Below are positions 6,869 through 21,572 of a stretch of DNA of 40,193 nucleotides, piece by piece; within the stretch, counting starts at the first letter, position 1; each line of letters begins with the position of its first letter. Under the pieces are notes generated by a model. That model saw only the letters and a list, made by a program, of their open reading frames with translations. It was not told where the DNA came from and did not search any database. Source of the DNA: Methanosarcinaceae archaeon (GTDB lineage: Archaea; Halobacteriota; Methanosarcinia; Methanosarcinales; Methanosarcinaceae). A program made the position numbers and the translations under genes. The stretch lies in contig JAIPUR010000024.1 in the NCBI GenBank assembly GCA_020055655.1, forward strand, positions 1 through 40,193, in the 5' to 3' direction.

Positions 6869-8494
6869 TCAATCCAATATCTGAATGTCCTCATAAGTGA
6901 TCGCATTCACAGGGCAAATCCGAACACACCTTTTACATGCAGTTCCAAGACACTTTTGTGTATCATACCTTGCGAACCGTTTGTCATCTCTTTCAACAAT
7001 GCTAATTGCATTTTCAGGGCATTCCTTTTCACACTTATGGCACAAAGTGCATCCTACTGCAAGCTCTTCAATAGTAATACCAACATTCTCTACAATTTCA
7101 ACGCCTGAAGTACTTATATTTTTTATATTCTCTGAAGACCGCTTTTCAACAGATGCAGTGCCAGGTTCCAGTGGAAGAGCGGGGAGACCATATATGGACA
7201 GGAAATGGTTGTACTGGTCCTTTGTCATACCTTCGGTCCAGTAGGAAAGCTCACAGGAATAGAAGTCCTTGAATGTGCCGCTTGTAGCCATCATCAAGTG
7301 ATCTGCCGTAATGTGACCTGCAAGTTTTATGACCTCATCAAGTTTGGATTCATCCAGTAATATTTCCCTTGCAAGTGCCAGGGAGGTGTTGCCGAATTGA
7401 ACTACCTTTTTAGAGAAATCCGGGCATGAGCCAATATGCATTGCTTTTTCAGCATCAACATATCCACCTGAAGCACCGGTCATGTACATGTTCTCAAGAT
7501 CATCATAATGCAGACCGGATTCTATTATGAGAGTCAATTGAGCTGCTCTTATGGCACCTATAGCCTTTCCGGCTTCTTTTATATCATCCTCTGTGATGAA
7601 CAGGTCATCACCAAGCAATATTTTTCCGTATTTTAGTTTAGGTGGATTTTCAATTATTCCTGTTTTCATGGCAACTGAAAGAACTGAAATAACACCTGTA
7701 CCTGTTATTCCCACAGGTTTTATATCTGAATCCTTTATTATTTCCCCGGAAACCGGGTCTATAATATAACTTTTCTGAGGTTCCATATCAGCATCAAGGA
7801 CCATAAGTTGCCAGTACTTTCCTTCACTGATTATATCAGATATCACACCTGGACTTGCAAGCATTCCACATCCAATGCCCTGTCCTTCAATAGCAGGACC
7901 TGCGGCTGCACTGGCCGTGATTATACGCTCACCTATCTTGATAGCCATTTCAGCATTGGTACCATAATCGGTCACAATAGTTGGAACAGTCTGGTCCAGG
8001 AAATCGGTTTCAAGCATCATTGCAAGAGCATCAGCACCGATCTCATGTCTGATAGCAGGAGGAACAATGATACTGCAATCATTATTAAATGCAGGACTTC
8101 CTTTAAAAATATCAGGTGCAGGGAATACCCTTGACTCACGCTTGACATCCTCTATTCCGAGTCTCTCCTGCATATTCTTACCAGCATATGCAAGGTCCCT
8201 TATCTCTGAGTTCTGGAACAATGAAAGCTGTATCGGATTTCCGCATACAGATATTTTCTCTATTAATGAAGCATCTACGTGGAAGCTATCGATCAATTTA
8301 CATATTGCATCGACGATTATTCGATGTGCTACATCTTCACTTACAGACAATGCAAAATCCAGATGATCGGTGATATTTCCACCGGGAAGAGGATGTTTTG
8401 CAGTCATTGAAGCCTTAAATACACTTTTAGATTCTAAATCTATTAATTGAGCCCTAAAGCCGCTCGTACCCAGATCCAGTGCTATCCCATACAT
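6869..8494 (-). CDS. ramA: RamA-like ATP-dependent reductive activase of corrinoid proteins
   Basis: A 541-residue protein. Residues 1 to about 440 form the ASKHA-fold ATPase domain of the RamA/DUF4445 type (YGIALDLGTSGFRAQLIDLE at the start; VTDYGTNAEMAI and TGASGGYV further on). The last 60 residues hold two [4Fe-4S] sites: C482, C485, C488, C492 and C515, C520, C523, C527. RamA reduces inactive Co(II) corrinoid to Co(I) with ATP, so that methyltransferase corrinoid proteins can work. Length agrees with RamA of Methanosarcina. It is the last gene of the methyltransferase island, 93 nt after the chaperonin gene, with AGGGGAA before its ATG. A paralogue dedicated to the adjacent fusion protein is likely, so the exact symbol is provisional. 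Confidence 0.85.
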   Translation of the reverse strand: MYGIALDLGTSGFRAQLIDLESKSVFKASMTAKHPLPGGNITDHLDFALSVSEDVAHRIIVDAICKLIDSFHVDASLIEKISVCGNPIQLSLFQNSEIRDLAYAGKNMQERLGIEDVKRESRVFPAPDIFKGSPAFNNDCSIIVPPAIRHEIGADALAMMLETDFLDQTVPTIVTDYGTNAEMAIKIGERIITASAAAGPAIEGQGIGCGMLASPGVISDIISEGKYWQLMVLDADMEPQKSYIIDPVSGEIIKDSDIKPVGITGTGVISVLSVAMKTGIIENPPKLKYGKILLGDDLFITEDDIKEAGKAIGAIRAAQLTLIIESGLHYDDLENMYMTGASGGYVDAEKAMHIGSCPDFSKKVVQFGNTSLALAREILLDESKLDEVIKLAGHITADHLMMATSGTFKDFYSCELSYWTEGMTKDQYNHFLSIYGLPALPLEPGTASVEKRSSENIKNISTSGVEIVENVGITIEELAVGCTLCHKCEKECPENAISIVERDDKRFARYDTQKCLGTACKRCVRICPVNAITYEDIQILD

Positions 8495-8587
8495 TTGATT
8501 TCCCCTATTATTTTCTGTTTAGCCGTTTTTTATTACAATGTTATTTTTGATCCAGGGCCAAAATACCAACCTGACGTAGTGGATCTA

Positions 8588-10198
8588 TTATCTGCTTCTA
8601 AGGATCTTGTCAATCCTCAAAACGCTGTTTGTAGCCTCTGTTGCTGCTATTAGTGAAAGTTTCTTGATGCTTGCGGAATCATACACAGGTGGCTTATTTG
8701 GTATTACCTCCCTTAACATATCGATTCTGGCATCTATTCCTTTATTATAGTACCCGGACATGCTTGACATTGAATCTATGACATTCATACCCATATTACG
8801 TGCAAGCGTCCTTGGAATCTCTTCCAGTGCATCTGCATATGCAAAGACCGCAAGTTGCTCTTTCCCAGCAACCGTAGAAGCATATTTTCTAAGCATTTGA
8901 GCGATCTCAAATTCTATCCAGCCACCGCCTTTCACGACTACCGGATTCTTCACCATAAAAGCAGCATTGTTAAGAGCATCATCAACTGCTTCTTCAACTT
9001 TATCCAGAGCATACCTGAATGGTTCCCATATCACAATGGATGACATCGGCTGATCCCTGACAGATATGGTGAGGAAATATTCATCACACCTCTTGTCCAC
9101 CTCGACCTCATCAGCATCACCAAGATCACTGGGCAGGATCTCGTCTTTGATGGAAAGGATTGAAGCACCAGTTGCCTTTGCGATCTTTTGAAGGTCCTTC
9201 ATCTGGAGCTTTCTGTAGAGCAGAATATCATTCTTTGCAAGAGTACCTTCAATGGAAGGATCGACCTTGCCTTCGCAGAGAACCAGATCTGCACCCGAAT
9301 CTACAATTTTATTTGCAAGTTCTTTCAGGTGCCTTATTTGGGAATTCTCAAATATCATTGAACCTTCGACGCCATCAAGATGAATATTATGCTGGGAATT
9401 AATGATCTTGCTCTCAAATTTTGTATTATAATTCAGGATAAGGACCTTTGCTCCCCTAAAATGAGTTGTTACACTTGTGTTATCAGGTGCTTCATCAAGT
9501 ACAATACCTGAAACACAGTTCATATCAGGTCCACCTACCTTCTTTATGACCTTTACATAATCATTGAGATCAACATAACTGTCCTCGCCCAGTTCTTTGA
9601 GATTCTCTACGGTCTTGAGCACAGCATCTGTGATCATCTTTGCCTGCTCAGCTTCCACACCCTTGCTTAAGCTGGCATTTTCGATCACTGAATGCATATC
9701 TTCATGTGAACGGCCATTAATCGTTGTAAATTCAAGAATGTCATAAGCTTTGTTAAGAGCCAGTTGATAGCCTCTTATAATAGTTGAAGGATGTATTCCT
9801 TCCCTTGCAAGTTTGGAAGCATTTTCAATAAGAGATGATGCAAAAAGAACAGCTCCCTTTGTACCATCACCACAGGTTTTATCCATTGACATTGCCAGAC
9901 TTTTCATGGAAGTGACTACAGGATGAAGTACATCTACCTCTTTGATGATGGTCTTCCCGTCGTTTGTCATGATAATATCGCCTGATGGATTTGCTATCAG
10001 TTTGTTCAGACCACGTGGACCAAAAGAAGATGATATCAGGTCTTTTACATCAGCTGAAACGGATTCCATGTGATGGATCAGATCATCGCCCTTAACATCC
10101 TCATCTATCCCGATCCTTGCCCTTACACTTGCCTTAAGAGCTTCCATGCTCTCAAGTTCATTACCAGGAGCTGGAGCTTGATCTACCATGGAGCTCAT
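8588..10198 (-). CDS. Divergent group II chaperonin (thermosome-like) subunit
   Basis: A 536-residue Cpn60/TCP-1 protein. The equatorial nucleotide loops are present but altered: TNDGKTIIKE is near canonical, GDGTT has become GDGTK, and the C-terminal equatorial loop reads VVKGGGWIEFEIA where VVPGGGAxExEIA is usual. The C-terminus ends in DKILRSR, without the Gly/Met tail of ordinary thermosomes. This fits a specialised paralogue and not the housekeeping thermosome. Its ATG overlaps the stop of the upstream gene (ATGA), so it is coupled to the hydantoinase-like gene and belongs to the methyltransferase operon. A role in folding or assembling the corrinoid methyltransferase is inference from position. 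Confidence 0.88.
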   Translation of the reverse strand: MSSMVDQAPAPGNELESMEALKASVRARIGIDEDVKGDDLIHHMESVSADVKDLISSSFGPRGLNKLIANPSGDIIMTNDGKTIIKEVDVLHPVVTSMKSLAMSMDKTCGDGTKGAVLFASSLIENASKLAREGIHPSTIIRGYQLALNKAYDILEFTTINGRSHEDMHSVIENASLSKGVEAEQAKMITDAVLKTVENLKELGEDSYVDLNDYVKVIKKVGGPDMNCVSGIVLDEAPDNTSVTTHFRGAKVLILNYNTKFESKIINSQHNIHLDGVEGSMIFENSQIRHLKELANKIVDSGADLVLCEGKVDPSIEGTLAKNDILLYRKLQMKDLQKIAKATGASILSIKDEILPSDLGDADEVEVDKRCDEYFLTISVRDQPMSSIVIWEPFRYALDKVEEAVDDALNNAAFMVKNPVVVKGGGWIEFEIAQMLRKYASTVAGKEQLAVFAYADALEEIPRTLARNMGMNVIDSMSSMSGYYNKGIDARIDMLREVIPNKPPVYDSASIKKLSLIAATEATNSVLRIDKILRSR

Positions 10199-12129
10199 GC
10201 CCCTCTCCTTGGACTGCCCACTGCAAGCCCTTCAATTTTTGTTTCAAGGGGAAGGGTTCCCATAGAACCAACATCATTACGTTTTAGTTCGAATTTTACT
10301 TTATCCATGTTCAGACCGTAACCTTTCATATACTCTGAAACCGATTCTTCCACAAATTTGAGAGCATATTCAATAGCAGACTTATAATCTTCAAAAAGTA
10401 TTCTTCCTTTCTCCGAGAACAATGCATATTGAGTACTGCCAAAGGAAGAAGGACGGATCAGTATCTCTGTCCTGTAAATAACATCACCAACTAGAGCCCC
10501 AACTGCATTTCCAACCTGGTGGAAATCAGGTACAATTATATCACCATCTATCGTTTTCTCAAGATCGGATTTATAGGCAGCTACCGGAGCACCCACAAGC
10601 ACGACAGGTGACTTGAGCCTGAATGTCATATTATCAGAGCAAGCCATTATCTTTTCAATGTCCTTTGTCTTAACATCATCTGCAAAATATGATATTAGGT
10701 CAAGGGCCAGATTGTCCACTAGCCCTTTCTTAACATTGGCACAGAATTGTTCTTTGCTGATACCCAGGTAACCGGAAAGGATCTTTGCACCTATGTCAGA
10801 TGCCTCTCCATTCCACCTGTCATATTCCCCAAGAACATGAAGTGCATCAGTTGGTGTGAATCCTATCTGCTGAATGCATCTTTTCTTCACAAGTGCCTGC
10901 AATATATGTGTGAACATCAAAGGATGGGTTTCTGTCTTCTTTGCAATATCCATAATAGATGTAGGCTCCTCACCCACAGCATCCAGTATCTCCATTTCCT
11001 GTCCATCGAGATCTGCCATGGCTCTGCAATGAGATCTTGAACCTTTGCATATGAAAAATGTCGTTGATTGCAGGGATTCTGTCATTATACGTGTGGAATA
11101 CTTATCCGAGCTTTCCAGTTCATCTATTACAGAAGGATATTCACTTGCAGCAAGACAAAGGGGAATTACTCTGTTCGGGCCAATATACATCTTGTTCTGT
11201 ACCCATACATGACTGTCTCCACCCATTGCCGATGTTCTCATTTTAATGGCTTTCACCATTGTTTTCCAGCCACCGACTATGGCACCCTGTTCATCTATCT
11301 GTGGGACAGCATCACGGATCATTGCAATATCTGTACTTGTACCGCCAACATCCATTGCAATACATTCTTCAAGTGAAGTTAGGTGACCGGCGCCAACAAG
11401 ACTGGCAGCTGGTCCTGAAAATATTGATTCAACGGGTTTTTCCACCGCTTCTTCTATCTTAACAAGTGAACCATCACACTTCATCATCATAAGTGTGGAA
11501 TCTATTCCAATATCTTTCATTACCGAAAGAATAGACTTAATAAAATCATCCACTACAGGTATAAGCTGAGCATTAAGCAAGGCAGTGATAGCCCTTTCTG
11601 AAGCTCCAAGGCTCATGGACAACTCATGTCCACATACTATTGGTAGATCGGTTAGTTTGCGCACATACTCTTTTACGCGATTTTCATGATCAGGATTTCT
11701 CACACCGAAGTATGAAGAAATTGCAAATGAAGCTACTTTCTTTTTGTTCTCAAGAATAAACTCCCTGAGCTCTTCCAGACCTTCAAGGGGAGCTATTTCA
11801 TTTCCATCGGAATCATGCCCTCCGGCTATGGACAGTACATGATCACTTGGAACTTTATTATTAATTGAATAACCAATGAGAATAAGACCGGCAGGATAAC
11901 CCTTACCCTCAAGGGTAGTATTGGTTGCCAGTGTTGTGGAAACAGAAGTAAAATTGATATCTTTTAAGTATTTTGGATCAAGTCCGTTGAGAGTATTTCG
12001 AATGCCTGTGACCAGATCGGGATATGTTGTCAATGATTTGTAAGAATTTACCAAAGATCCATCAGAGAGATCCATTAGTACTGCATCTGTATATGTGCCG
12101 CCTGTATCAATACCAAGTCCAAGTTTCAT
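10195..12129 (-). CDS. Hydantoinase/oxoprolinase (HyuA)-family protein
   Basis: A 644-residue ASKHA ATPase-like protein. The N-terminal phosphate-1 loop is GLGIDTGGTYTDAVLMDL, followed by STTLATNTTLEGKG. The phosphate-2 loop is AMDVGGTSTDIAMI, and SGPAASLVGA lies between, as in HyuA. A C-terminal extension (about 360-640) contains a winged-helix-like stretch and LVGAPVAAY. Classical HyuA hydrolyses hydantoins or 5-oxoproline with HyuB, but no hyuB is nearby, so that reaction is doubtful here. Its position between the corrinoid/methyltransferase fusion and the chaperonin suggests an ATP-using helper of corrinoid methyl transfer; this is inference. AGGTGAT precedes the ATG. Confidence 0.8.
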   Translation of the reverse strand: MKLGLGIDTGGTYTDAVLMDLSDGSLVNSYKSLTTYPDLVTGIRNTLNGLDPKYLKDINFTSVSTTLATNTTLEGKGYPAGLILIGYSINNKVPSDHVLSIAGGHDSDGNEIAPLEGLEELREFILENKKKVASFAISSYFGVRNPDHENRVKEYVRKLTDLPIVCGHELSMSLGASERAITALLNAQLIPVVDDFIKSILSVMKDIGIDSTLMMMKCDGSLVKIEEAVEKPVESIFSGPAASLVGAGHLTSLEECIAMDVGGTSTDIAMIRDAVPQIDEQGAIVGGWKTMVKAIKMRTSAMGGDSHVWVQNKMYIGPNRVIPLCLAASEYPSVIDELESSDKYSTRIMTESLQSTTFFICKGSRSHCRAMADLDGQEMEILDAVGEEPTSIMDIAKKTETHPLMFTHILQALVKKRCIQQIGFTPTDALHVLGEYDRWNGEASDIGAKILSGYLGISKEQFCANVKKGLVDNLALDLISYFADDVKTKDIEKIMACSDNMTFRLKSPVVLVGAPVAAYKSDLEKTIDGDIIVPDFHQVGNAVGALVGDVIYRTEILIRPSSFGSTQYALFSEKGRILFEDYKSAIEYALKFVEESVSEYMKGYGLNMDKVKFELKRNDVGSMGTLPLETKIEGLAVGSPRRGA

Positions 12130-12249
12130 TTATATCACCTGTTTTAGAAAATTTATGAAGAAGAAGAAATGCTGGAGGCATTCTTCTTTAATCGATTTTG
12201 CAAATTAATAGACCAAATCAAATTTTGAGATCACCTCACAATAAAAGGA

Positions 12250-12276
12250 AAAGAAAAAATGGGTTATTACACCCAC
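12250..12276 (-). terminator. Hairpin and T-rich tract after the fused methyltransferase gene
   Basis: On the minus strand a short stem (TGGGT / ACCCA, 5 bp with possible GU extension, 6-nt loop) is followed by TTTTTTCTTTTCCTTTT, just after the stop at 12290. It probably ends or attenuates transcription, so the downstream helper genes would be made at a lower level than the methyltransferase. Confidence 0.5.
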
Positions 12277-12289
12277 TTTATCCAATGAT

Positions 12290-14182
12290 CTATTTCTGGA
12301 GCTCTGGACCGAGTTCCTTAACAACATCGACCATTGCCTTAACTGTGCTAAGTGGTCCTCCTGGTGGGATCTCACAGCCAGATGACATTATATACTTGGA
12401 CTGCAGACCATTCTCCTTGAGTACTGGATGAACGTCTCTAAGCAGCTGTTCTGTGTCGTTCTTGATCTTCTGCACACCTTCTGCAGAACCATCCATGAAA
12501 TCAACAGGATTAATCTCTCCCATAAGACAACATTCCTGACCATATTTTGGAATAAGGTCCATGTGTCCCTGTGAGCCCTTTCCTCTGAGCTTTGGATAGT
12601 ATGCGTAGCTGTAAAGCTGGGTGCCGAACTTTGTGATCTGGGTATCAAAGTGTACTGCATCTGCACAGTTGTGGATGATGTATGGCTGGTCATATTTCTT
12701 GAATATTGGAAGGTGCTGGTCGTAGACGAATTTACCGTCAAACTTCCAGTAGTCTTCTTCGTCCATGATTATATTGTTAGACCAGAGGTTGTCAACACAA
12801 AGTGCATTACATGCGCTTTCTTCGAAGAATACTTCAGATACCTGGCAGATGTAGTCAGTACATTTCTGCACAGCTTCAAGTACAACTTCAGGATTTGTCT
12901 TCATATCCATAAGTACACGGTCTGCTCCCATCAACTGGGTAAGGGTGAGCAGTGGACCTTCGTGGAAACCGACAAATGGTGCATTGAGTTCGCCATTGAG
13001 CTTTTCTGTTGCAAGCTTGGATGCCTGAATAAGCTCGTATGCACGTGTTCCTTCCTTGACTTCTGGAACTTCTATCTTGTCATAATCATCAAGGTGACCT
13101 TCGGATGATGGAGTGTCATCTTCTGGGTATTTGATCTCACATCCAAAGTCAGCCGGTGTAATTGAAAGGTCCATAAGACCTACGAACATATCACTGTCAG
13201 TGTACTTGGTTCCAAGGAAAGCACTGTCTCTAAATGCCTCTGGTTCAAGACAATATTGCTTGTATGAAACATTAGCAAACTTCCTGTATGAACCACATGC
13301 AAGAGGATATACTGGAAGCCGGTCTACCTTTTTGTCGCCCATTGCTGCAAGTGTTCTGTCCATGTGGGACATTTCTTCTTTATCTTTGACAGCTACAGAA
13401 TCGAATTCTGCCATGATCTCTTTTGCAGTCTCGAGTCCGACATCTGTCTTGCCCTTTACTTTCTTCTTAGAAAGTATGTCTCTATACTTGACCTTTGCAA
13501 GTCCGATCTTTTCATCGCTCCATCTGTCTTCAGATGGGCCAAGTGCCTTTACAGCTTCCTTTGCCCAGTCAGTTGCAAGCATTGCATCGTTGTGTGTTGA
13601 ATCTGCACCGACTTCTGCTGCAAACTCTTCGGATATTGGAGCACCACCGACCATAACAGCCATAGCGTCTCTGATACCTTCTTCCTGAAGCATTTCAATA
13701 ACTTTTTCCATGTTTACCATGGTTGTTGTCATTAAAGCACTCATTGAAACAAGATCAGCTTTGTTTTCTTTTGCAGCTTCAGCGAATTTCTCGACAGGTA
13801 CATCAGCACCGAGATCGATCATGTTGAAACCTGCTGCTGAAAGCATTGTCTTTACGAGGTTCTTTCCAATATCGTGAACGTCACCCTCAATACTTCCGAT
13901 TACACCGACTGCTGGTACATGTCCTTCCTGTGTGACGATGTGTGGAGTTAAGATATCCATACCTTTATACATTGCTTTTGATGCAACGAGCAGGTGTGGG
14001 ACAAAAGCCTCTCCTCTCTCATACTTGTCACTGACAATGACCATTCCTTTTGCAAGACCGTCGAGGATAGCTGTGTAAGCATCATCACCATCTGCAACTA
14101 CTTTGTTCGCGAGTTCTTCTACTGCAGCGACGTTTCCGCCAACTACAGCATCCGCTAATTGATTTAATGTAGCAGTATCCAT
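12290..14182 (-). CDS. Fused corrinoid protein/methylcobamide:CoM methyltransferase (MtsD/F/H type)
   Basis: A 630-residue two-domain protein. Residues 1-215 are a corrinoid-binding protein of the MtaC/MtbC/MtmC class: a four-helix cap, then the cobalamin motif DVHDIG (D101, H103, G106; H103 is the lower ligand) and a GGAPI loop near 179-183. Residues about 270-630 are a UroD-fold methylcobamide:CoM methyltransferase of the MtaA/MtbA class with zinc ligands H504, C506 and C603. Such fusions are known as MtsD, MtsF and MtsH in Methanosarcina acetivorans, where they act on methanethiol and dimethyl sulfide and transfer the methyl group to CoM. GGAGGA stands before the ATG, and a long A/T-rich promoter region lies upstream. 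Substrate cannot be fixed from sequence; methyl sulfides are the best guess, supported by the adjacent Msr-type regulator. Confidence 0.85.
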   Translation of the reverse strand: MDTATLNQLADAVVGGNVAAVEELANKVVADGDDAYTAILDGLAKGMVIVSDKYERGEAFVPHLLVASKAMYKGMDILTPHIVTQEGHVPAVGVIGSIEGDVHDIGKNLVKTMLSAAGFNMIDLGADVPVEKFAEAAKENKADLVSMSALMTTTMVNMEKVIEMLQEEGIRDAMAVMVGGAPISEEFAAEVGADSTHNDAMLATDWAKEAVKALGPSEDRWSDEKIGLAKVKYRDILSKKKVKGKTDVGLETAKEIMAEFDSVAVKDKEEMSHMDRTLAAMGDKKVDRLPVYPLACGSYRKFANVSYKQYCLEPEAFRDSAFLGTKYTDSDMFVGLMDLSITPADFGCEIKYPEDDTPSSEGHLDDYDKIEVPEVKEGTRAYELIQASKLATEKLNGELNAPFVGFHEGPLLTLTQLMGADRVLMDMKTNPEVVLEAVQKCTDYICQVSEVFFEESACNALCVDNLWSNNIIMDEEDYWKFDGKFVYDQHLPIFKKYDQPYIIHNCADAVHFDTQITKFGTQLYSYAYYPKLRGKGSQGHMDLIPKYGQECCLMGEINPVDFMDGSAEGVQKIKNDTEQLLRDVHPVLKENGLQSKYIMSSGCEIPPGGPLSTVKAMVDVVKELGPELQK

Positions 14183-14240
14183 TTAATTTCCTCCAATGTT
14201 TCTGTTGTCACCAATTGCCCATATTGCCTCTGCAACTGTT

Positions 14241-14490
14241 GACGCATTAACGTAGAATCGATAAGATATAACATAAACGGAATAATAAAATAAAGTCTAA
14301 TGATGGTGTTAACATGGCACTCAGGGGTTAATCATATTATTTAATGGGCGGAGTTTAATCTAATTATAGAGGTCAATTACAAAAATATGATTAATCTAGT
14401 TAATGGTATTAATTGAATTAATAGAATGCCTAATTCATTATCTAATCAATAGTTAATATAACTTCTTACAACAATTGTATTGCTAATTTT
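14241..14490 (-). promoter_or_regulatory. Promoter/leader of the fused methyltransferase, copy A of a duplicated region
   Basis: This is the core of the 473-nt gap between the methyltransferase and its regulator. On the minus strand a TATA box TTATGTTATA (about 14267-14276) would start transcription some 55 nt before the ATG at 14182. Upstream lie GTTAAC at 14308-14313, TTAATGGTATTAA at 14400-14412 and a run of ATTAAT boxes to about 14450. The same elements in the same order and at nearly the same spacing occur at 18148-18405 before the kinase gene. A small palindrome (CTACTT/AAGTAG at 14634-14646) follows the regulator stop. I see no gene in the rest of the gap. Confidence 0.7.
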
Positions 14491-14655
14491 CCTCAAAAGC
14501 TTAGCAATCTACCAATATTTGAATGCATAATACAATATTAAATAGCAGTTTGATCAAATAAGTAAATCATTCGTTTGAATGTTCAGTAAGATCCGTCATT
14601 CATACAATAAAAATAAATATTGATAAAGAGGAGCTACTTTAAGTAGATAAATAAA

Positions 14656-15441
14656 TCAGATACCATCCACATACAATGAGGTTGCCTTAAAGTAATTAAA
14701 AAGGTCTTTGCCCCATTTAAGAGCACTTTCCTCATAAGCCATCATTGCATGGTTGTGGTACATCCCATTTTTGAAGAAGAGTGAAAATGATAAAAATTCA
14801 TCAGTTGCAATACAGGAAGCAAGATTGATATTATCATGATACACATAAAGCTTGACATTGCGCATACTGATAAACTCTTCCAATATAGTTCGATACTCGT
14901 CCCTCATTCTTTCAAAAACATGTTCTGTCACAATGAGTTCCATATGAACGCCATTCTTTGCATATTCAAGATATTTAGAAGTGTAAGCGGGACTAAAATA
15001 TGATGATACTTCCATTATGCTTTTTGCTTCTGCAAGATTATCTTCCAGATCCTTTGGTAGTTCATACATACGATTTAAGTCAGCTTCCACGAGTTTGCAA
15101 GGACCAATCTCATCTATCCTGTCTTGCAACTGCGAAGGAATTGAGCTGAATTTATGGTTATCCCAGTATTCCCGATTATCTGAATAAACGTGTAAAGTAT
15201 TAATAAGAGGTAACATTTTTCTGGCGATTACCTCGCCAAAGTTTGAAAGGAAATAATGATCGTTTGCATAAATAACCAAACCATGGTCAACAAGTATCTT
15301 TATCTGTGTCATCATTGCACTTGAAGTTACACTGAGGGTCTGCTTGATATCATCAAGACTCATTGGCCCATTTATTAATAAAAGAAGCAGATCCTTTCTT
15401 TTATCTGAAAGAAAAATCGTACCCAATAAAGCCAATTCCAT
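14656..15441 (-). CDS. Msr-type transcription regulator (ArsR-like HTH plus DUF1724)
   Basis: A 261-residue regulator. Residues about 10-75 form a winged helix (KRKDLLLLLINGPMSLDDI, then a recognition-helix region SSAMMTQIKILVDHGL and a wing YANDHYFLS). Residues about 120-255 match the DUF1724/FilR1-like domain of methanogenesis regulators, with the usual DRIDEIG, SYFSPAYTSKYLEYAKNG and LFFKNGMY segments. Msr proteins of Methanosarcina activate neighbouring methyl-sulfide methyltransferase genes, and the position here, directly before the fused methyltransferase, is the same. It starts 39 nt after the kinase stop, so kinase and regulator are one transcript. AGGTGA precedes the ATG by 8 nt. 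The likely target is the 14241-14490 region. Confidence 0.85.
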   Translation of the reverse strand: MELALLGTIFLSDKRKDLLLLLINGPMSLDDIKQTLSVTSSAMMTQIKILVDHGLVIYANDHYFLSNFGEVIARKMLPLINTLHVYSDNREYWDNHKFSSIPSQLQDRIDEIGPCKLVEADLNRMYELPKDLEDNLAEAKSIMEVSSYFSPAYTSKYLEYAKNGVHMELIVTEHVFERMRDEYRTILEEFISMRNVKLYVYHDNINLASCIATDEFLSFSLFFKNGMYHNHAMMAYEESALKWGKDLFNYFKATSLYVDGI

Positions 15442-15480: not shown

Positions 15481-18009
15481 TTAATCATTCCATAAGGGAA
15501 GCTTAATGTAAATTGTTGTTCCTTCACCTAATTCACTTTCAACCCATATTTCACCTTCATGAGCATCAATTGTATCTTTACACATTTGAAGTCCTGATTC
15601 AATTGCCCAGTACATATGACTTGAATTCTCATCCAACTGACAAAAGTTATGAAATAGGTGGGGTATCAATTCTTTTTGTATGCCAGGTCCCATGTCAGAT
15701 ATCTCAGTGTGTAGATAATTATCATCCTCGTACATATTTATAGCCAAAGAACCACCCTCTGGGGTAAAGTTTATAGCATTATCAATTAGATTAAGATAAA
15801 CATCAGTCAGTTTCTCTTTGTCTCCTTTCACAAAAGAAAGATTACGAGGGATGTTCTTTTTAAGATCCAGTTGCTTTTCATCGATCAATAGTATCAGATT
15901 TAGCAATACATCGGATATCAATGTGTAAAGATTAAGCTCTTCAAATGAGTATTTTATCTCACCCAAGTCTTTCAAATTTCGGTAAAATGCAGTATCAGAT
16001 AGTCTTTTGATTCTCTCAGAATTACGAAGCAGAGCCAACATTGCTACTTTCTGAGAATCATTTATTAAATTAAGAGCTTCGCCACCAAAAGAATTACATT
16101 CTGAACATATAGAATCATCATCTACGGGAAAATTACTTTTAATGAAATCTTCCTTCATACTATTGATAGACCTTAATTCTTTGTTAGATTTTGAAAGTTC
16201 TGAAGAATACTTATTGAAAGCATCTAATGTTTGTCTTTTCTTAATCAATTTCCACATTGCCTGCACAAGGAGGGTAAGTTGAAGTACATCAGATTCATCA
16301 TAGTCTTCTTCTTTGTTACCTACACCTACCACAGCAACAATATGCTCACCATCAAACAAGGGAACATTCAAGTGTCGTGTTAACTGTACATGGCCACTTG
16401 GATAACCTTTTTTCATAGAGGATTCCATACTATAATCGTTGGTGATGATAGGTTTACGCTGTCTAACAGCTTCTCCCCAAAGGCCGGTGGTAGCTATAGG
16501 ATATGTAAAGATCTTGTCTTTGATTTCACACTCTTTCATGGTAAATTTTGACCACGAATGCATAATAAGAACAGTTTCATCTGCATTTGTAAATGCAAGA
16601 TAACCTAATTTGCTACCAGTAAGTCTTACTGCCTCTTCGCGGGCAAAATCAGTGATATCGTTTAAAGAAGTGCCTGTCATATCATTTAGCTTGACCAATG
16701 CCTCTAACCTTGAAGCATTAAGCAGTTTTGATTTTTCAGCTTTCTTCCTTTCAGTAATGTCACGAGCAACTGACAGAACTGCTTTTTTACCATTATATTC
16801 AATAAGCTTAGCATTAACTTCAAGTGGTATAACAGAGCCATCTTTTCGAATAGCTGCTGACTCATAGGTAGCTTTTCCATTTTTAACTATACGTCTAATG
16901 AAATGCGTGGCATGCTCCACATATTTTGAGGGAACCAGGTTTTTTGGTGATAAGCTCAAAATATATTCTTTGGAATATCCAAGGGTATCAACAGCAACCT
17001 GATTTACATCTATTAAAGTACCGTTCAGTTTGCTGAGAAAAATAAGATCGTTGATGCTATTGAATATGATCTTGAATTTGTGTTCAGATTCACGAAAGCT
17101 CTCATTAATTATTCTGTTTTCAACCTCAATGGCTGCGATATCTGCATTTGCTTTGAGATAGTGCATGCATGCACTTTTCGGAGACCTTGGATTTTCAAAG
17201 TACATAGCAAAGACACCAAGAATGTCTCCATTTGATGCCACCATCGGTTCAGTCCAGCATGCACGAATGCCAATTTTCTTTGAAAAAACTCTGTCCTTTG
17301 TCCAGAAAGGATATTTAGCCACATCTTCAATTATGACCCGCCTTCCAAAGCATACAGATCTAGCACAACAACCCATGTTATGTTTTACCTCTGCTCCTTC
17401 AAGATATTCCCTGAATAAAGCAGGCAAGTTGGGAGCTACAACGTGAAATATCCTCTTTTTGCTCTTGTCCAGCAAAATCACGGCACATTTCAGATCAGAT
17501 TTGATCATTTCAGCGTTCGTTACAAGAAGGGAGAGAATGTTCTCAAGAGACGCATCCTTGCCACTGACATTTGTATTTGCACCTTGATCAGTTACCTTGC
17601 GGCACTTTTTTTCAGTAATGTCACTGATGATACCGTCAATATAGGTATCACCATTTTCGTCACGTCTTATTTGTGACTTTTCTTCAACATGGCGTATCTC
17701 ACCAAATTTGGTGATAATTCTATACTGCTGTTCAAATGCAGTAATTACAGGATTTAGGTACTTAAAAGCATTAGAAATTATCTTGAAATCATCAGGATGT
17801 ACAATTTCGCCAAAGTTCATCTTTCTAGAAGTAAAATCTTCAGGATGATAGCCAAATTGTTTGATGTTTGCATTTAAATGCACAACTGGTAGATCATCCT
17901 CAAGTTTTCGGGAAATTATAATAAACGAACTTTCTTTAATAATTTTTAAATCAAGTTCTGTATCTGATTGTTTAATCATATTTTTGACCAGATTACCACA
18001 GATCCTCAT
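15481..18009 (-). CDS. PAS-GAF-PAS-GAF sensor kinase, MsmS-like, without a canonical H-box
   Basis: A protein of about 842 residues, numbered here from the TTG at 18012 as residue 1. Order: PAS1 (25-137, ending GIISDITEKK), GAF1 (155-305, with NMGCCARSVCFG), PAS2 (312-425, ending VARDITERKK), GAF2 (435-595), a helical dimerisation region (600-700) and a HATPase (715-840). The ATPase has N-box NLIDNAINF and G1 box DMGPGI. The region where F-xx-SHELRTP should be reads DFIKSNFPVDDDS, with no histidine, and the G2 box is degenerate (AIESGLQM). Domain order and location match MsmS of M. acetivorans, a haem-binding kinase beside an mts gene whose haem is attached through a cysteine in the second GAF; here GAF2 has one cysteine, C495. 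ATG 18009 follows an in-frame TTG; ATG 17979 is another possible start. No membrane segments. Confidence 0.82.
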   Translation of the reverse strand: MRICGNLVKNMIKQSDTELDLKIIKESSFIIISRKLEDDLPVVHLNANIKQFGYHPEDFTSRKMNFGEIVHPDDFKIISNAFKYLNPVITAFEQQYRIITKFGEIRHVEEKSQIRRDENGDTYIDGIISDITEKKCRKVTDQGANTNVSGKDASLENILSLLVTNAEMIKSDLKCAVILLDKSKKRIFHVVAPNLPALFREYLEGAEVKHNMGCCARSVCFGRRVIIEDVAKYPFWTKDRVFSKKIGIRACWTEPMVASNGDILGVFAMYFENPRSPKSACMHYLKANADIAAIEVENRIINESFRESEHKFKIIFNSINDLIFLSKLNGTLIDVNQVAVDTLGYSKEYILSLSPKNLVPSKYVEHATHFIRRIVKNGKATYESAAIRKDGSVIPLEVNAKLIEYNGKKAVLSVARDITERKKAEKSKLLNASRLEALVKLNDMTGTSLNDITDFAREEAVRLTGSKLGYLAFTNADETVLIMHSWSKFTMKECEIKDKIFTYPIATTGLWGEAVRQRKPIITNDYSMESSMKKGYPSGHVQLTRHLNVPLFDGEHIVAVVGVGNKEEDYDESDVLQLTLLVQAMWKLIKKRQTLDAFNKYSSELSKSNKELRSINSMKEDFIKSNFPVDDDSICSECNSFGGEALNLINDSQKVAMLALLRNSERIKRLSDTAFYRNLKDLGEIKYSFEELNLYTLISDVLLNLILLIDEKQLDLKKNIPRNLSFVKGDKEKLTDVYLNLIDNAINFTPEGGSLAINMYEDDNYLHTEISDMGPGIQKELIPHLFHNFCQLDENSSHMYWAIESGLQMCKDTIDAHEGEIWVESELGEGTTIYIKLPLWND

Positions 18010-18147
18010 CAATTATGGTTCTACAACAATGACGCTGCTACTAGTTGCAGCTTTTTCTAATTGATATGATCGGCTAGATCCATTGCAATTCTTTCTTTCT
18101 AAATAATATGTACTCGTCAATGATTACATGTACTTTATGGAAACACC

Positions 18148-18636: not shown

Positions 18637-19395
18637 ATGACTCAATATGGAAAAGTATATCTGGTTGGTTCAGGACCCGGGGACCCGGAACTTCTGACCG
18701 TTAAGGCTCGAAGGTTAATTGACACTGCTGATGTGGTAGTTTTCGATCAGCTTCCAGGTAAAGCAATTCTTGAATCTATCCCAGCTGAAACTGAAAAGAT
18801 AGATGCTGGTAAGCATGCTGGTGAGCACACTCTTAAACAGCATGAGATAAATGCCGTTATTGTTGAGAAAGCAAAAGAAGGAAAGTCTGTAGTTCGCTTA
18901 AAGGGTGGCGATCCATATATGTTCGGACGTGGTGGCGAAGAGGCTCAGGAACTTATTAAAGATGGAATTCAGTTTGAAGTAGTACCTGGCATAACATCTG
19001 CTGTATCTGTTCCTGCATACGCTGGAATTCCTGTGACTCACAGAGATCATGCATCAATGGTGACTTTCATCACCGGTCATGAGGACCCAACAAAAGAAGA
19101 AAGTGCACTTGATTGGGAGGCACTGGCAGCTTTCAATGGTACTATTGTAATTTTCATGGGTGTGAAAATGCTGGGCAGAAATGCTGGCGAACTAATTAAG
19201 AATGGTAAAGATCCTAATACGCCAGTTGCACTCATAGAGAGAGGTACACGTCCTGATCAGAGAGTTACTGTTGGAACACTTGAGAATATCGAAGCACTTT
19301 CTAAAGAAAGAGCTGTCAAAGCTCCTGCAATAACCATAATTGGCGATGTTGTAAAACTTCACGATGAACTTGGTGAACAGCTTATTTCTTACTAA
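18637..19395 (+). CDS. cobA: Uroporphyrinogen-III C-methyltransferase
   Basis: A 252-residue SAM-dependent methyltransferase that methylates uroporphyrinogen III at C2 and C7 to give precorrin-2, the branch point to cobalamin, siroheme, haem (Ahb route) and F430. Clear family signatures: LVGSGPGDPELLTVKA near the N-terminus, VVRLKGGDPYMFGRGGEE (about 87-104), FEVVPGITSA and ALIERGTRPDQR. Length is that of a stand-alone SUMT, without the CysG dehydrogenase/chelatase part. It is 12 nt before hemD and evidently in one operon with it. Confidence 0.95.
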   Translation: MTQYGKVYLVGSGPGDPELLTVKARRLIDTADVVVFDQLPGKAILESIPAETEKIDAGKHAGEHTLKQHEINAVIVEKAKEGKSVVRLKGGDPYMFGRGGEEAQELIKDGIQFEVVPGITSAVSVPAYAGIPVTHRDHASMVTFITGHEDPTKEESALDWEALAAFNGTIVIFMGVKMLGRNAGELIKNGKDPNTPVALIERGTRPDQRVTVGTLENIEALSKERAVKAPAITIIGDVVKLHDELGEQLISY

Positions 19396-19407
19396 GGAGT
19401 TCTGAAT

Positions 19408-20202
19408 ATGGTGAGTTTAGGTAAAAAGCCTGTACTTGCAATAATGAGGCCGGAAGTGTACATAAAAAGGTCTGTGGAACTTGCAGAATCACTTGGCTTT
19501 GAGCCTGTTGCAGCCCCAATGGTAGAACTTGCAAGTATGAGGGATGATGAATTTGATCCTTTTCTTGAAAGGGTTCTTTCGGGAAAGTCAGATTATGTCA
19601 TAATCACAAGTGCCAATGGAATGGATTTCACTCTCGATAAGATTCCTGATGATCGCAAGCAGGATTTCATAGATGCTTTGAATTCAACCAATGTGATAGC
19701 GATTGGTCCCACAACCAGTAAGTCACTTGAAGATTTTGGCATTAACATCATGGGTATTCCCGGAGTTTACAGCTCAGAAGGTATAGTGGACTATCTGTGT
19801 GGTTCAGTGAAGGGAAAGGTCATAGACATGGCAAGGAGCTATTATGGTTCACAACTGCTTAATGAAGGCCTTCTCAAATGTGGAGCTATAGTTCATGAAA
19901 CTCAGATCTATACAATAGTCAGGCCGGAAGGTGAAAAACAAAGCCAGTTTATGGGGGATGTTTTTGATAAAAGGATTTCTGTTTTTGCATTCACAAGTTC
20001 TATGATGGTACATAATTTCTTTGAGTATGCAAAGGAATTTGGCTCGGAAGCAGATGCTGTATCGATTCTGAATGATTCAGTTGTTGCTGCTATAGGTAAA
20101 CCTACTGCAAAAGTCCTTAAAAGCTATGGAGTTGAAGTATCTGTAACTCCTGGTAAATTCACATTTGAAGAAGTTTTGAAAAAAGTACTTGATGTACTTT
20201 AA
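19408..20202 (+). CDS. hemD: Uroporphyrinogen-III synthase
   Basis: A 264-residue HemD-fold protein that closes hydroxymethylbilane to uroporphyrinogen III. The family is poorly conserved, but two alternating alpha/beta domains can be followed: PVLAIMRPEVY..SVELAESLGFEPV at the start, DYVIITSANG (about 67-76), VIAIGPTTSK, the second domain around VFAFTSSMMVHNFF, and VVAAIGKPTAKVLKSYGV near the end. The immediate cobA neighbour confirms it. AAGGAG precedes the ATG by 9 nt. Confidence 0.92.
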   Translation: MVSLGKKPVLAIMRPEVYIKRSVELAESLGFEPVAAPMVELASMRDDEFDPFLERVLSGKSDYVIITSANGMDFTLDKIPDDRKQDFIDALNSTNVIAIGPTTSKSLEDFGINIMGIPGVYSSEGIVDYLCGSVKGKVIDMARSYYGSQLLNEGLLKCGAIVHETQIYTIVRPEGEKQSQFMGDVFDKRISVFAFTSSMMVHNFFEYAKEFGSEADAVSILNDSVVAAIGKPTAKVLKSYGVEVSVTPGKFTFEEVLKKVLDVL

Positions 20203-20369
20203 TCCTTTTCTTCTTGATTTTATTTTTATTTTTTAGGGTAAATCTTTATCGTATTCTATATGTATATTTTTGGGAAGTTCATCTACCATCGATATAATAT
20301 AGTATGATTGTATAGGTTCGGCACAAACAACGATACTTTCTTTTATGATTCTAATTCGGAGCATTTATT

Positions 20370-21572
20370 ATGATAGGTATTTCAAAGTTGTACTGCAGAA
20401 CTGTTGAGCCATCAGACGCTTTGCGCTATGGACGTGATTCAAAACAGCTCCCTTCTCACTTATTGCAATTCTCAAAGGATAAAAAACCTGTTGTTGTCTG
20501 GAACGTGACTCAGCGATGTAATCTCCGTTGTATTCACTGTTATGCTCATTCAAAGGATATTGAATACAATAATGAGCTCAGCACGGAACAGGGCAAGGAG
20601 CTAATAGATGACCTTGCTGATTTCGGTTCACCTGTGATACTATTTTCAGGAGGTGAACCTCTTATGAGAAAAGACCTTCCTGAGCTTGCAGCCTATGCAA
20701 CATCAAAGGGAATCCGTGCAGTTATCTCTACCAATGGTACTATGATAACTGAAAAGGTTGCACAGAAACTCAAAGATATTGGCCTGTCATATGTAGGTAT
20801 TTCTCTTGATGGTATGCGCGAGACAAATGACAAGTTCAGAGGTATGGCAGGTTCATTTGACAAAGCACTTGAAGGGCTTCGCAACTGTCAGAAAGTTGGC
20901 ATTAAAGTAGGACTGCGTTTTACTATCAATCGCCATAATGTTCATGATATTCCTGGGATATTTGATCTGATGGAAAAGGAGAACATTCCTCGTATTTGCT
21001 TCTATCATTTGGTTTATTCAGGACGTGGTTCTGAAATGATCGAAGAGGATCTTTCTCTGGAAGAGAGCAGGGAAACAGTTGATCTTCTGATCGACAGAAC
21101 TCGGGAATTGCATAAAAAGGGTAAAATGGTCGAGGTTCTGACAGTGGACAACCACTGTGATGGTCCATACATTTACCTGCGCTTGCTGAAAGAGGACCCT
21201 GAACGTGCAGCTGAAGTTCTTGAACTCCTTGAGATGAACAGAGGTAATTCTACAGGAATTGGATTTGGTTGTATCTCCTGGGACGGCTCAGTACACCCTG
21301 ATCAGTTCTGGAGGCACTATACCTTTGGCAACATAAAAGAGCGCAAGTTCAGTGAAATATGGACTGATACTTCTGATGAACTAATGGCAGGTCTAAAGGA
21401 TCGTAAGCCTCTCATAAAAGCAAATGCTAACAGATGTGCAAAGTGCAAATGGTTCGATGTTTGTAATGGTAATTTCCGTGTAAGAGCCGAGGCTGTACAT
21501 GGTAATCTCTGGGCTGATGACCCAGCATGCTATTTAACAGAAAAAGAGATTGGTTATACTGAAGAAGGTTAA
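20370..21572 (+). CDS. ahbC: AhbC-like radical SAM enzyme of the alternative haem pathway
   Basis: A 400-residue radical SAM protein with the cluster motif C50-x3-C54-x2-C57 (RCNLRCIHCYA), the GGEP SAM-binding motif (SGGEPLMRK) and a C-terminal SPASM-like cysteine region (CAKCKWFDVCNG, then ADDPACY). The N-terminus (IGISKLYC, then SHLLQFSKDKKPVVVWN) is what I remember for AhbC, which converts 12,18-didecarboxysiroheme to Fe-coproporphyrin III. AhbD, the last enzyme, is the close alternative and has a different N-terminus. It follows cobA-hemD with its own 167-nt upstream gap, whose first half is T-rich (terminator-like) and whose second half carries a TATA-like GATATAATATAG. Confidence 0.85.
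   Translation: MIGISKLYCRTVEPSDALRYGRDSKQLPSHLLQFSKDKKPVVVWNVTQRCNLRCIHCYAHSKDIEYNNELSTEQGKELIDDLADFGSPVILFSGGEPLMRKDLPELAAYATSKGIRAVISTNGTMITEKVAQKLKDIGLSYVGISLDGMRETNDKFRGMAGSFDKALEGLRNCQKVGIKVGLRFTINRHNVHDIPGIFDLMEKENIPRICFYHLVYSGRGSEMIEEDLSLEESRETVDLLIDRTRELHKKGKMVEVLTVDNHCDGPYIYLRLLKEDPERAAEVLELLEMNRGNSTGIGFGCISWDGSVHPDQFWRHYTFGNIKERKFSEIWTDTSDELMAGLKDRKPLIKANANRCAKCKWFDVCNGNFRVRAEAVHGNLWADDPACYLTEKEIGYTEEG

Follow-up and report, generated by a model that had tools for sequence, protein, structure and literature searches.

A divergent group II chaperonin gene accompanies fused corrinoid methyltransferase genes at putative methylsulfide loci of Methanosarcinaceae

We analyzed a 40,193-nucleotide stretch of DNA (the window) from a Methanosarcinaceae archaeon (GenBank assembly GCA_020055655.1; contig JAIPUR010000024.1; contig C16 of genome G000; assembly, 2.48 Mb; 99.9% complete). 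On its minus strand, a gene for a fused corrinoid/methylcorrinoid:coenzyme M methyltransferase (T) is followed by genes for a HyuA-like ASKHA protein (H), a divergent group II chaperonin (C), and a RamA-type reductive activase (R). Our strong finding is that the robust module in this row consists of the methyltransferase and the chaperonin, which belongs to a clade that tracks T across Methanosarcinaceae. The enzyme and the chaperonin fold are known; the client-tracking chaperonin clade is the new part, as no chaperonin-methyltransferase link was found described in the open-access literature searched (i.e., titles, abstract openings, and passages, with subscription papers on mts genes outside that scope).

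All hits to the chaperonin clade among 111 Methanosarcinaceae genomes were fetched as regions L095 to L154 (L113 is a T/H region without a clade chaperonin). Linkage was defined as a T open reading frame (ORF) on the same strand, at most 6 kb upstream or 2.5 kb downstream of the chaperonin. In this neighborhood survey, T was linked to 61 of the 63 clade ORFs of at least 200 amino acids (aa); the two unlinked ORFs (L098 and L102) have 1.9 kb of contig left before their start, a space filled by a HyuA gene. At the genome level, the clade was present in 47 of the 52 genomes with T (i.e., full-length T or clear T fragments, listed by hand from the searches) versus 0 of the 59 genomes lacking T (Fisher P, ~5e-26, not corrected for ancestry). 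Contigs of two further T genomes (G091 and G095) end inside the first 59 to 75 codons of the chaperonin beside T, as expected if near-identical copies break assemblies, and including these cut copies raises the count to 49 of 52. No chaperonin trace was found in the remaining three T genomes (G048, 70% complete; G049, 93% complete, with T at contig ends; G100, 60% complete). This genome-level count is the fair one, because our table of 66 T copies consists mostly of copies fetched near a chaperonin and its chaperonin column is thus biased. Contigs also end inside the chaperonin gene in L158, L159, L252, and L254; since such breaks probably stem from near-identical copies, gene surveys will undercount this chaperonin.

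The first-pass annotation of the window had treated the four genes as one coupled operon and called for a survey of their co-occurrence. The arrangement is no accident of this contig, given that it recurs across Methanosarcinaceae, and the survey upheld the link between T and the chaperonin, but it revealed no fixed four-gene unit. A HyuA gene lies just upstream of the chaperonin gene in 43 of the 63 cases, and a RamA gene follows within 8 kb on the same strand in 25. Conversely, many loci with HyuA or RamA lack the chaperonin. Because 22 loci with an mtsF-type T (F type) have the chaperonin without HyuA, and HyuA occurs without the chaperonin, T is the common partner of the chaperonin.

The pair also occurs outside Methanosarcinaceae, in a second lineage (family f8). 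Among 392 genomes sampled from the phylum, a single non-Methanosarcinaceae hit, in G382, passed a threshold of 1e-90. In this genome, T is followed after 8 nucleotides (nt) by a divergent chaperonin gene and a convergent RamA gene (L155, 6141 to 11811). A second f8 genome (G257; 96% complete) has T, a divergent chaperonin gene after 12 nt, and a convergent RamA gene (L242, 102 to 5888). No other f8 genome in a 391-genome sample has T, and both of these have the pair (2/2) without HyuA. McrA was not found in the 96% complete G257, indicating that the T-chaperonin pair is not bound to methanogenesis. A peptide-pattern scan of genome contigs used two patterns, by which diverged members would be missed. 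Whether the f8 chaperonins group with the Methanosarcinaceae clade in the chaperonin tree depends on the choice of outgroup, and the program warned of long branches meeting; the shared neighborhood is therefore a better argument than the tree.

Six genes lie in the order K, M, T, H, C, and R on the minus strand of the window (ORFs and Pfam/NCBIfam matches), as follows.

15481..18012, minus strand: K, RdmS/MsmS-like sensor kinase with PAS/GAF and HATPase domains (Pfam PAS_3, GAF_2, PAS_9, and HATPase_c)
14656..15441, minus strand: M, FilR1/Msr-type helix-turn-helix regulator (PF08350 FilR1_middle, 124 bits; HTH_20)
14183..14655, minus strand: 473-nt A+T-rich gap upstream of T, a probable regulatory region (read from the sequence)
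12290..14182, minus strand: T, fused corrinoid/methylcorrinoid:coenzyme M methyltransferase, MtsD type (Pfam; identity to the G074 copies)
10195..12129, minus strand: H, lone HyuA-like ASKHA protein, mts type (Pfam Hydantoinase_A/Hydant_A_N; predicted fold)
8588..10198, minus strand: C, divergent group II chaperonin of the methyltransferase-linked clade (Cpn60_TCP1, 389 bits; predicted fold)
6869..8494, minus strand: R, RamA-type reductive activase (TIGR04270; RACo_C_ter; 4Fe-4S dicluster)

The placement, order, and strand of the last four genes, and the 4-nt overlap of H and C (10195 to 10198), agree with the first-pass annotation, as do the family assignments of T, H, and R; the T-H and C-R gaps are 160 and 93 nt, respectively. 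The closest chaperonins from named relatives are those of Methanolobus. The best explanation of the gene content is an mtsD-type methylsulfide utilization locus, with maintenance genes, of a Methanolobus-like methanogen.

T carries B12-binding_2, B12-binding, and URO-D domains in one chain (Pfam), and its translation contains a DVHDIG corrinoid motif and an HxC...GC motif (of 61 T copies, 5 escaped a regular expression written for the corrinoid motif). It shares its domain architecture and the types of its upstream regulator and kinase with MtsD/MtsF/MtsH (CmtA) of Methanosarcina acetivorans (PMC7374477). The three T copies of genome G074 are 73.7% (D type), 65.3% (H type), and 54.9% (F type) identical to T of the window. 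The F-type locus of G074 reads T, chaperonin, cobW-type GTPase, MtaC, MtaB, two HyuA proteins, and two Msr regulators. This order matches the cluster of mtsF, mtaCB2, hydantoinases MA4395 and MA4396, and msrDE in the part of PMC11619418 describing M. acetivorans, and G074 is thus almost certainly M. acetivorans. According to passages of a review, MtsD prefers dimethyl sulfide, MtsF prefers methanethiol, and MtsH uses both; a neighboring chaperonin is not mentioned in those passages (PMC7374477). Being closest to the D-type copy, T is best called MtsD type, and it probably uses dimethyl sulfide, by analogy with MtsD. In the mtsH-type locus of G074 (L162, 3660 to 6475), a cobW-type GTPase gene follows T, and the next gene encodes what we take, from its sequence, to be a RuBisCO-like large subunit.

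Kinase K is 57% identical to the kinase encoded upstream of a regulator and the mtsD-type gene in G074. It has sensor domains and an HATPase domain, with no HisKA family among its Pfam matches, a layout like that of RdmS (MA0863), which is described as a kinase without an H-box, and MsmS; the place upstream of an mts regulator and enzyme is likewise shared (PMC11784639). In most mtsD-type loci, T is immediately preceded by an M-type regulator gene. In the relevant passages on M. acetivorans, mtsD is reported as upregulated ~100-fold under Mcr limitation (PMC11267899), and MA4384 to MA4394 are reported as one contiguous HdrED-responsive cluster (PMC11619418). The clade chaperonin gene of G074 between F-type T and mtaCB falls inside this span.

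The chaperonin has a full-length Cpn60_TCP1 domain and scores below the curated thermosome cutoffs (341.5 versus 671.1, 329.9 versus 450, and 326 versus 400 bits), in agreement with the divergence noted in the first-pass annotation. Among the 111 genomes, clade members are at least 43% identical to it; after a gap, ordinary thermosomes follow at ~35% or less. The predicted fold matches the M. maripaludis chaperonin 5w79 with a template modeling (TM) score of 0.85 and 28% identity. At the lid position, residues 265 to 273 have a predicted local distance difference test (pLDDT) score of <50, and helix 277 to 301 is present. The protein thus shares the full-length domain, the fold, GDGT, and the catalytic Asp with the archaeal thermosome (e.g., Mm-Cpn of M. 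maripaludis), from which it differs in being ~30% identical, in reading NDGK for NDGA, in lacking the GGM tail, and in its genomic tie to one enzyme family.

The window copy carries TNDGK, GDGTK, DDAL, and SKG. Our assignment of the catalytic residues is presumptive, and the Protein Data Bank title of a D386A mutant (3j02) agrees with it. In the 56 full-length clade members (seven shorter ORFs were excluded), GDGTK and the DDA Asp are kept in 56/56 and the sensor-loop pattern is kept in 53/56, and an ATP cycle is probable for the window protein. In all 56, Lys or Arg replaces the Ala or Val of the NDGA/NDGV found in the aligned canonical subunits, and none has the GGM tail. GDGTK was rejected as a sole mark of the clade because Acidianus chaperonin beta (3j1e) also reads DGTK; the NDGA-to-NDGK change is the remaining candidate, a contrast resting on canonical subunits in two alignments. 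Both f8 chaperonins are without the NDG Asp, the sensor-loop Lys, and the DDA Asp.

Chaperonin copies at the D-type and F-type loci of the same genome are nearly identical (96.8% in G074, 99.6% in G007, 96.6% in G006, and 92.7% in G008), whereas the T proteins beside them are 53 to 55% identical. The chaperonin gene has therefore been copied to, or homogenized between, loci. Copies are degraded at the F-type loci L153 and L154 and missing from the D-type locus L257, in each case with an intact copy elsewhere in the genome, a pattern consistent with a helper that acts in trans and of which one working copy per genome is sufficient. Broken or shortened chaperonin genes were seen in L152, L153, and L154 (in G093, G083, and G080, respectively), each genome keeping another copy. 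The ratio of nonsynonymous to synonymous substitution rates of the chaperonin is 0.04 to 0.18 in 12 of 12 pairs, like those of T and H; the chaperonin is under purifying selection.

H has Hydant_A_N and Hydantoinase_A domains (Pfam). Its predicted fold is closest to acetone carboxylase chain 5svc_B (Z score, 28.8; root mean square deviation, 3.9; 514 aligned residues; 20% identity) and is shared by subunits of acetone carboxylase and caprolactamase. As in the HyuA subunits of hydantoinase, acetone carboxylase, and caprolactamase, this fold extends over >500 residues with both ASKHA phosphate motifs, and both GGT phosphate motifs are present in 43/43 H homologues. Unlike those subunits, H has no HyuB partner in its operon; the single HyuB of G000 lies on contig C45, in one 1,223-aa frame with another HyuA. 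H was therefore rejected as a hydantoinase. The comparison with the ASKHA reactivase 2d0o_C (Z score, 16.9; VIA-align) shows only a common superfamily, and a reactivase-like role of H would be an analogy. A mid-protein helical stretch (residues ~376 to 423 of H; window 10195 to 12129) reads like a winged helix. R is clearly RamA by its profile matches (TIGR04270, 729.5 bits versus a cutoff of 500; RACo_C_ter; two 4Fe-4S motifs), and it has the same domains as RamA but stands at a methylsulfide instead of a methylamine locus.

The first-pass annotation had also regarded HyuA as an unusual component of methylotrophic operons, which our survey does not bear out. HyuA-like proteins are multicopy (1 to 13 matches in 103 of 111 Methanosarcinaceae genomes), and their genes also adjoin MtaCB (methanol methyltransferase) and other corrinoid protein genes; a figure legend of PMC9768040 describes a bacterial glycine betaine cassette drawn with a "HydA." Across G000, G058, and G074, HyuA lies at methyltransferase loci in L243, L245, L249, L250, L142, L162, and the window. 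The idea that all copies do so was rejected, since no methyltransferase was found among the ORFs tested near the HyuA of L244, L247, and L248, and L246 adjoins mcrA.

Several further observations concern the surroundings. Genes for tetrapyrrole synthesis (TP_methylase, HemD, and a radical SAM protein; window 18637 to 21572) diverge from the kinase gene; genes for corrinoid/heme precursor synthesis thus adjoin the corrinoid enzyme locus. G000 holds the start of a second such locus (L251; G000:C46:68000-78649; T at 9106 to 10650), where the contig ends within T; relative to the window, T is 95% identical over 515 residues, the regulator 78%, and the kinase 80%. The window lacks a URO-D-type methyltransferase gene that, in most other Methanolobus-type loci, separates the chaperonin gene from the RamA gene (L097, 4209 to 5348; L099, 12148 to 13260; L104, 6002 to 7126; L110, 5227 to 6228). 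In the Methanosarcina loci L122 and L142, a cobW-type GTPase gene follows the chaperonin gene.

To account for these data, we propose that C is a client-dedicated group II chaperonin that folds the fused corrinoid enzyme or loads its cofactor, with R as the activase and H as an accessory, a reading to which we give an even chance. By analogy with MtsD, T would demethylate dimethyl sulfide (or methanethiol), passing the methyl group to its bound corrinoid and then to coenzyme M, and RamA, going by its family, would re-reduce corrinoid that has slipped to Co(II). The chaperonin, using ATP, would fold, assemble, or corrinoid-load the ~68-kDa two-domain T, or rescue damaged T. What the data show directly is the gene order, the linkage, the co-occurrence, the purifying selection, and the retained catalytic residues; client binding, ATP use, and cofactor loading are what we infer. 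Acting in trans, one chaperonin copy per genome would be enough for several T paralogues. H, the lone ASKHA ATPase of mtsD- and mtsH-type loci, may aid cofactor exchange, which is the weakest step. The dedicated maturation device of the first-pass annotation is thus favored for T plus the chaperonin by their linkage, their co-occurrence, and the two f8 genomes, and only weakly for HyuA; since the four genes do not always occur together, its joint version (i.e., two ASKHA ATPases plus a folding chamber) is conjectural.

Five points weigh against this proposal. The co-occurrence counts do not allow for shared ancestry. T stands without its own chaperonin at the mtsH-type L162, at L113, in the second copy of L149, and at L257, as well as in the F-type T of L258 and L255 (6,000 bases fetched for L255), so the idea of a separate chaperonin for each T copy was rejected, and the chaperonin would have to act in trans. 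Identities of chaperonin and T correlate only moderately (r = 0.49; 52 pairs), as near-identical chaperonin paralogues imply, and a tight co-phylogeny was rejected on this ground. With catalytic residues seemingly lost in f8, a role shared by the two lineages cannot lie in folding driven by ATP. Finally, recombinant CmtA (MtsF) has reportedly been made in E. coli, which would speak against an absolute need for the chaperonin in folding.

A more elaborate form of this proposal, which we offer tentatively and consider somewhat unlikely, is that the group II lineage became a private maturation cage of fused corrinoid:coenzyme M methyltransferases, with a changed nucleotide pocket (i.e., the Lys in NDGK and GDGTK), copies duplicated beside divergent client paralogues and homogenized between them, corrinoid insertion or exchange aided by one or two ASKHA ATPases, and, in f8, where catalytic residues are gone, a client-specific cage that would run without ATP.

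Group II subunits co-assemble in other archaea, and C might instead be a substrate-adaptor subunit that joins ordinary thermosome subunits in a hetero-oligomeric ring when methylsulfide enzymes are made, with no ring of its own. Besides C, G000 encodes three group II or related chaperonins, and the missing GGM tail (56/56) would suit such an adaptor; an identity of at most ~35% to ordinary subunits does not, and we judge this unlikely. M. acetivorans is said to have two outlying Hsp60 genes.

It is decidedly less probable that C has no specific client and is a general stress chaperonin, coregulated with the methylsulfide genes because both respond to energy or redox stress. The reported responses of mtsD and MA4384 to MA4394 to Mcr or Hdr limitation (PMC11267899 and PMC11619418, in part) would agree with it; such a chaperonin need not track T, yet no T-less genome keeps it, near-identical copies stand beside divergent T paralogues, and a divergent copy accompanies T in the McrA-less genome. 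We rate just as low a role without ATP cycling, in which C does not fold the fused enzyme but serves as a cage or scaffold to hold, store, or shield it. The f8 residue losses and the Lys or Arg in place of the Ala of NDGA throughout the Methanosarcinaceae clade point toward it, but the conserved GDGT, DDA Asp, and sensor-loop pattern of that clade point away. Service to the immediate neighbors, HyuA or RamA, rather than to T is very improbable: the 4-nt overlap recurs in most Methanolobus loci and RamA is directly downstream in the window, but the 22 F-type and both f8 loci lack HyuA (for which HyuA was rejected as the client), RamA is nearby in just 25 of 63 cases, and both occur in many loci without the chaperonin.

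Chaperonins are usually generalists. If our proposal of a client-dedicated chaperonin is right, this clade would provide a clear example from nature of a dedicated group II chaperonin and a way to ask what chaperonins recognize. It would also point to an unrecognized maturation step of methylsulfide methyltransferases, which underlie the conversion of dimethyl sulfide to methane in anoxic sediments. Because M. acetivorans has both chaperonin copies and clients and is amenable to genetics, the question can be put to a direct test.

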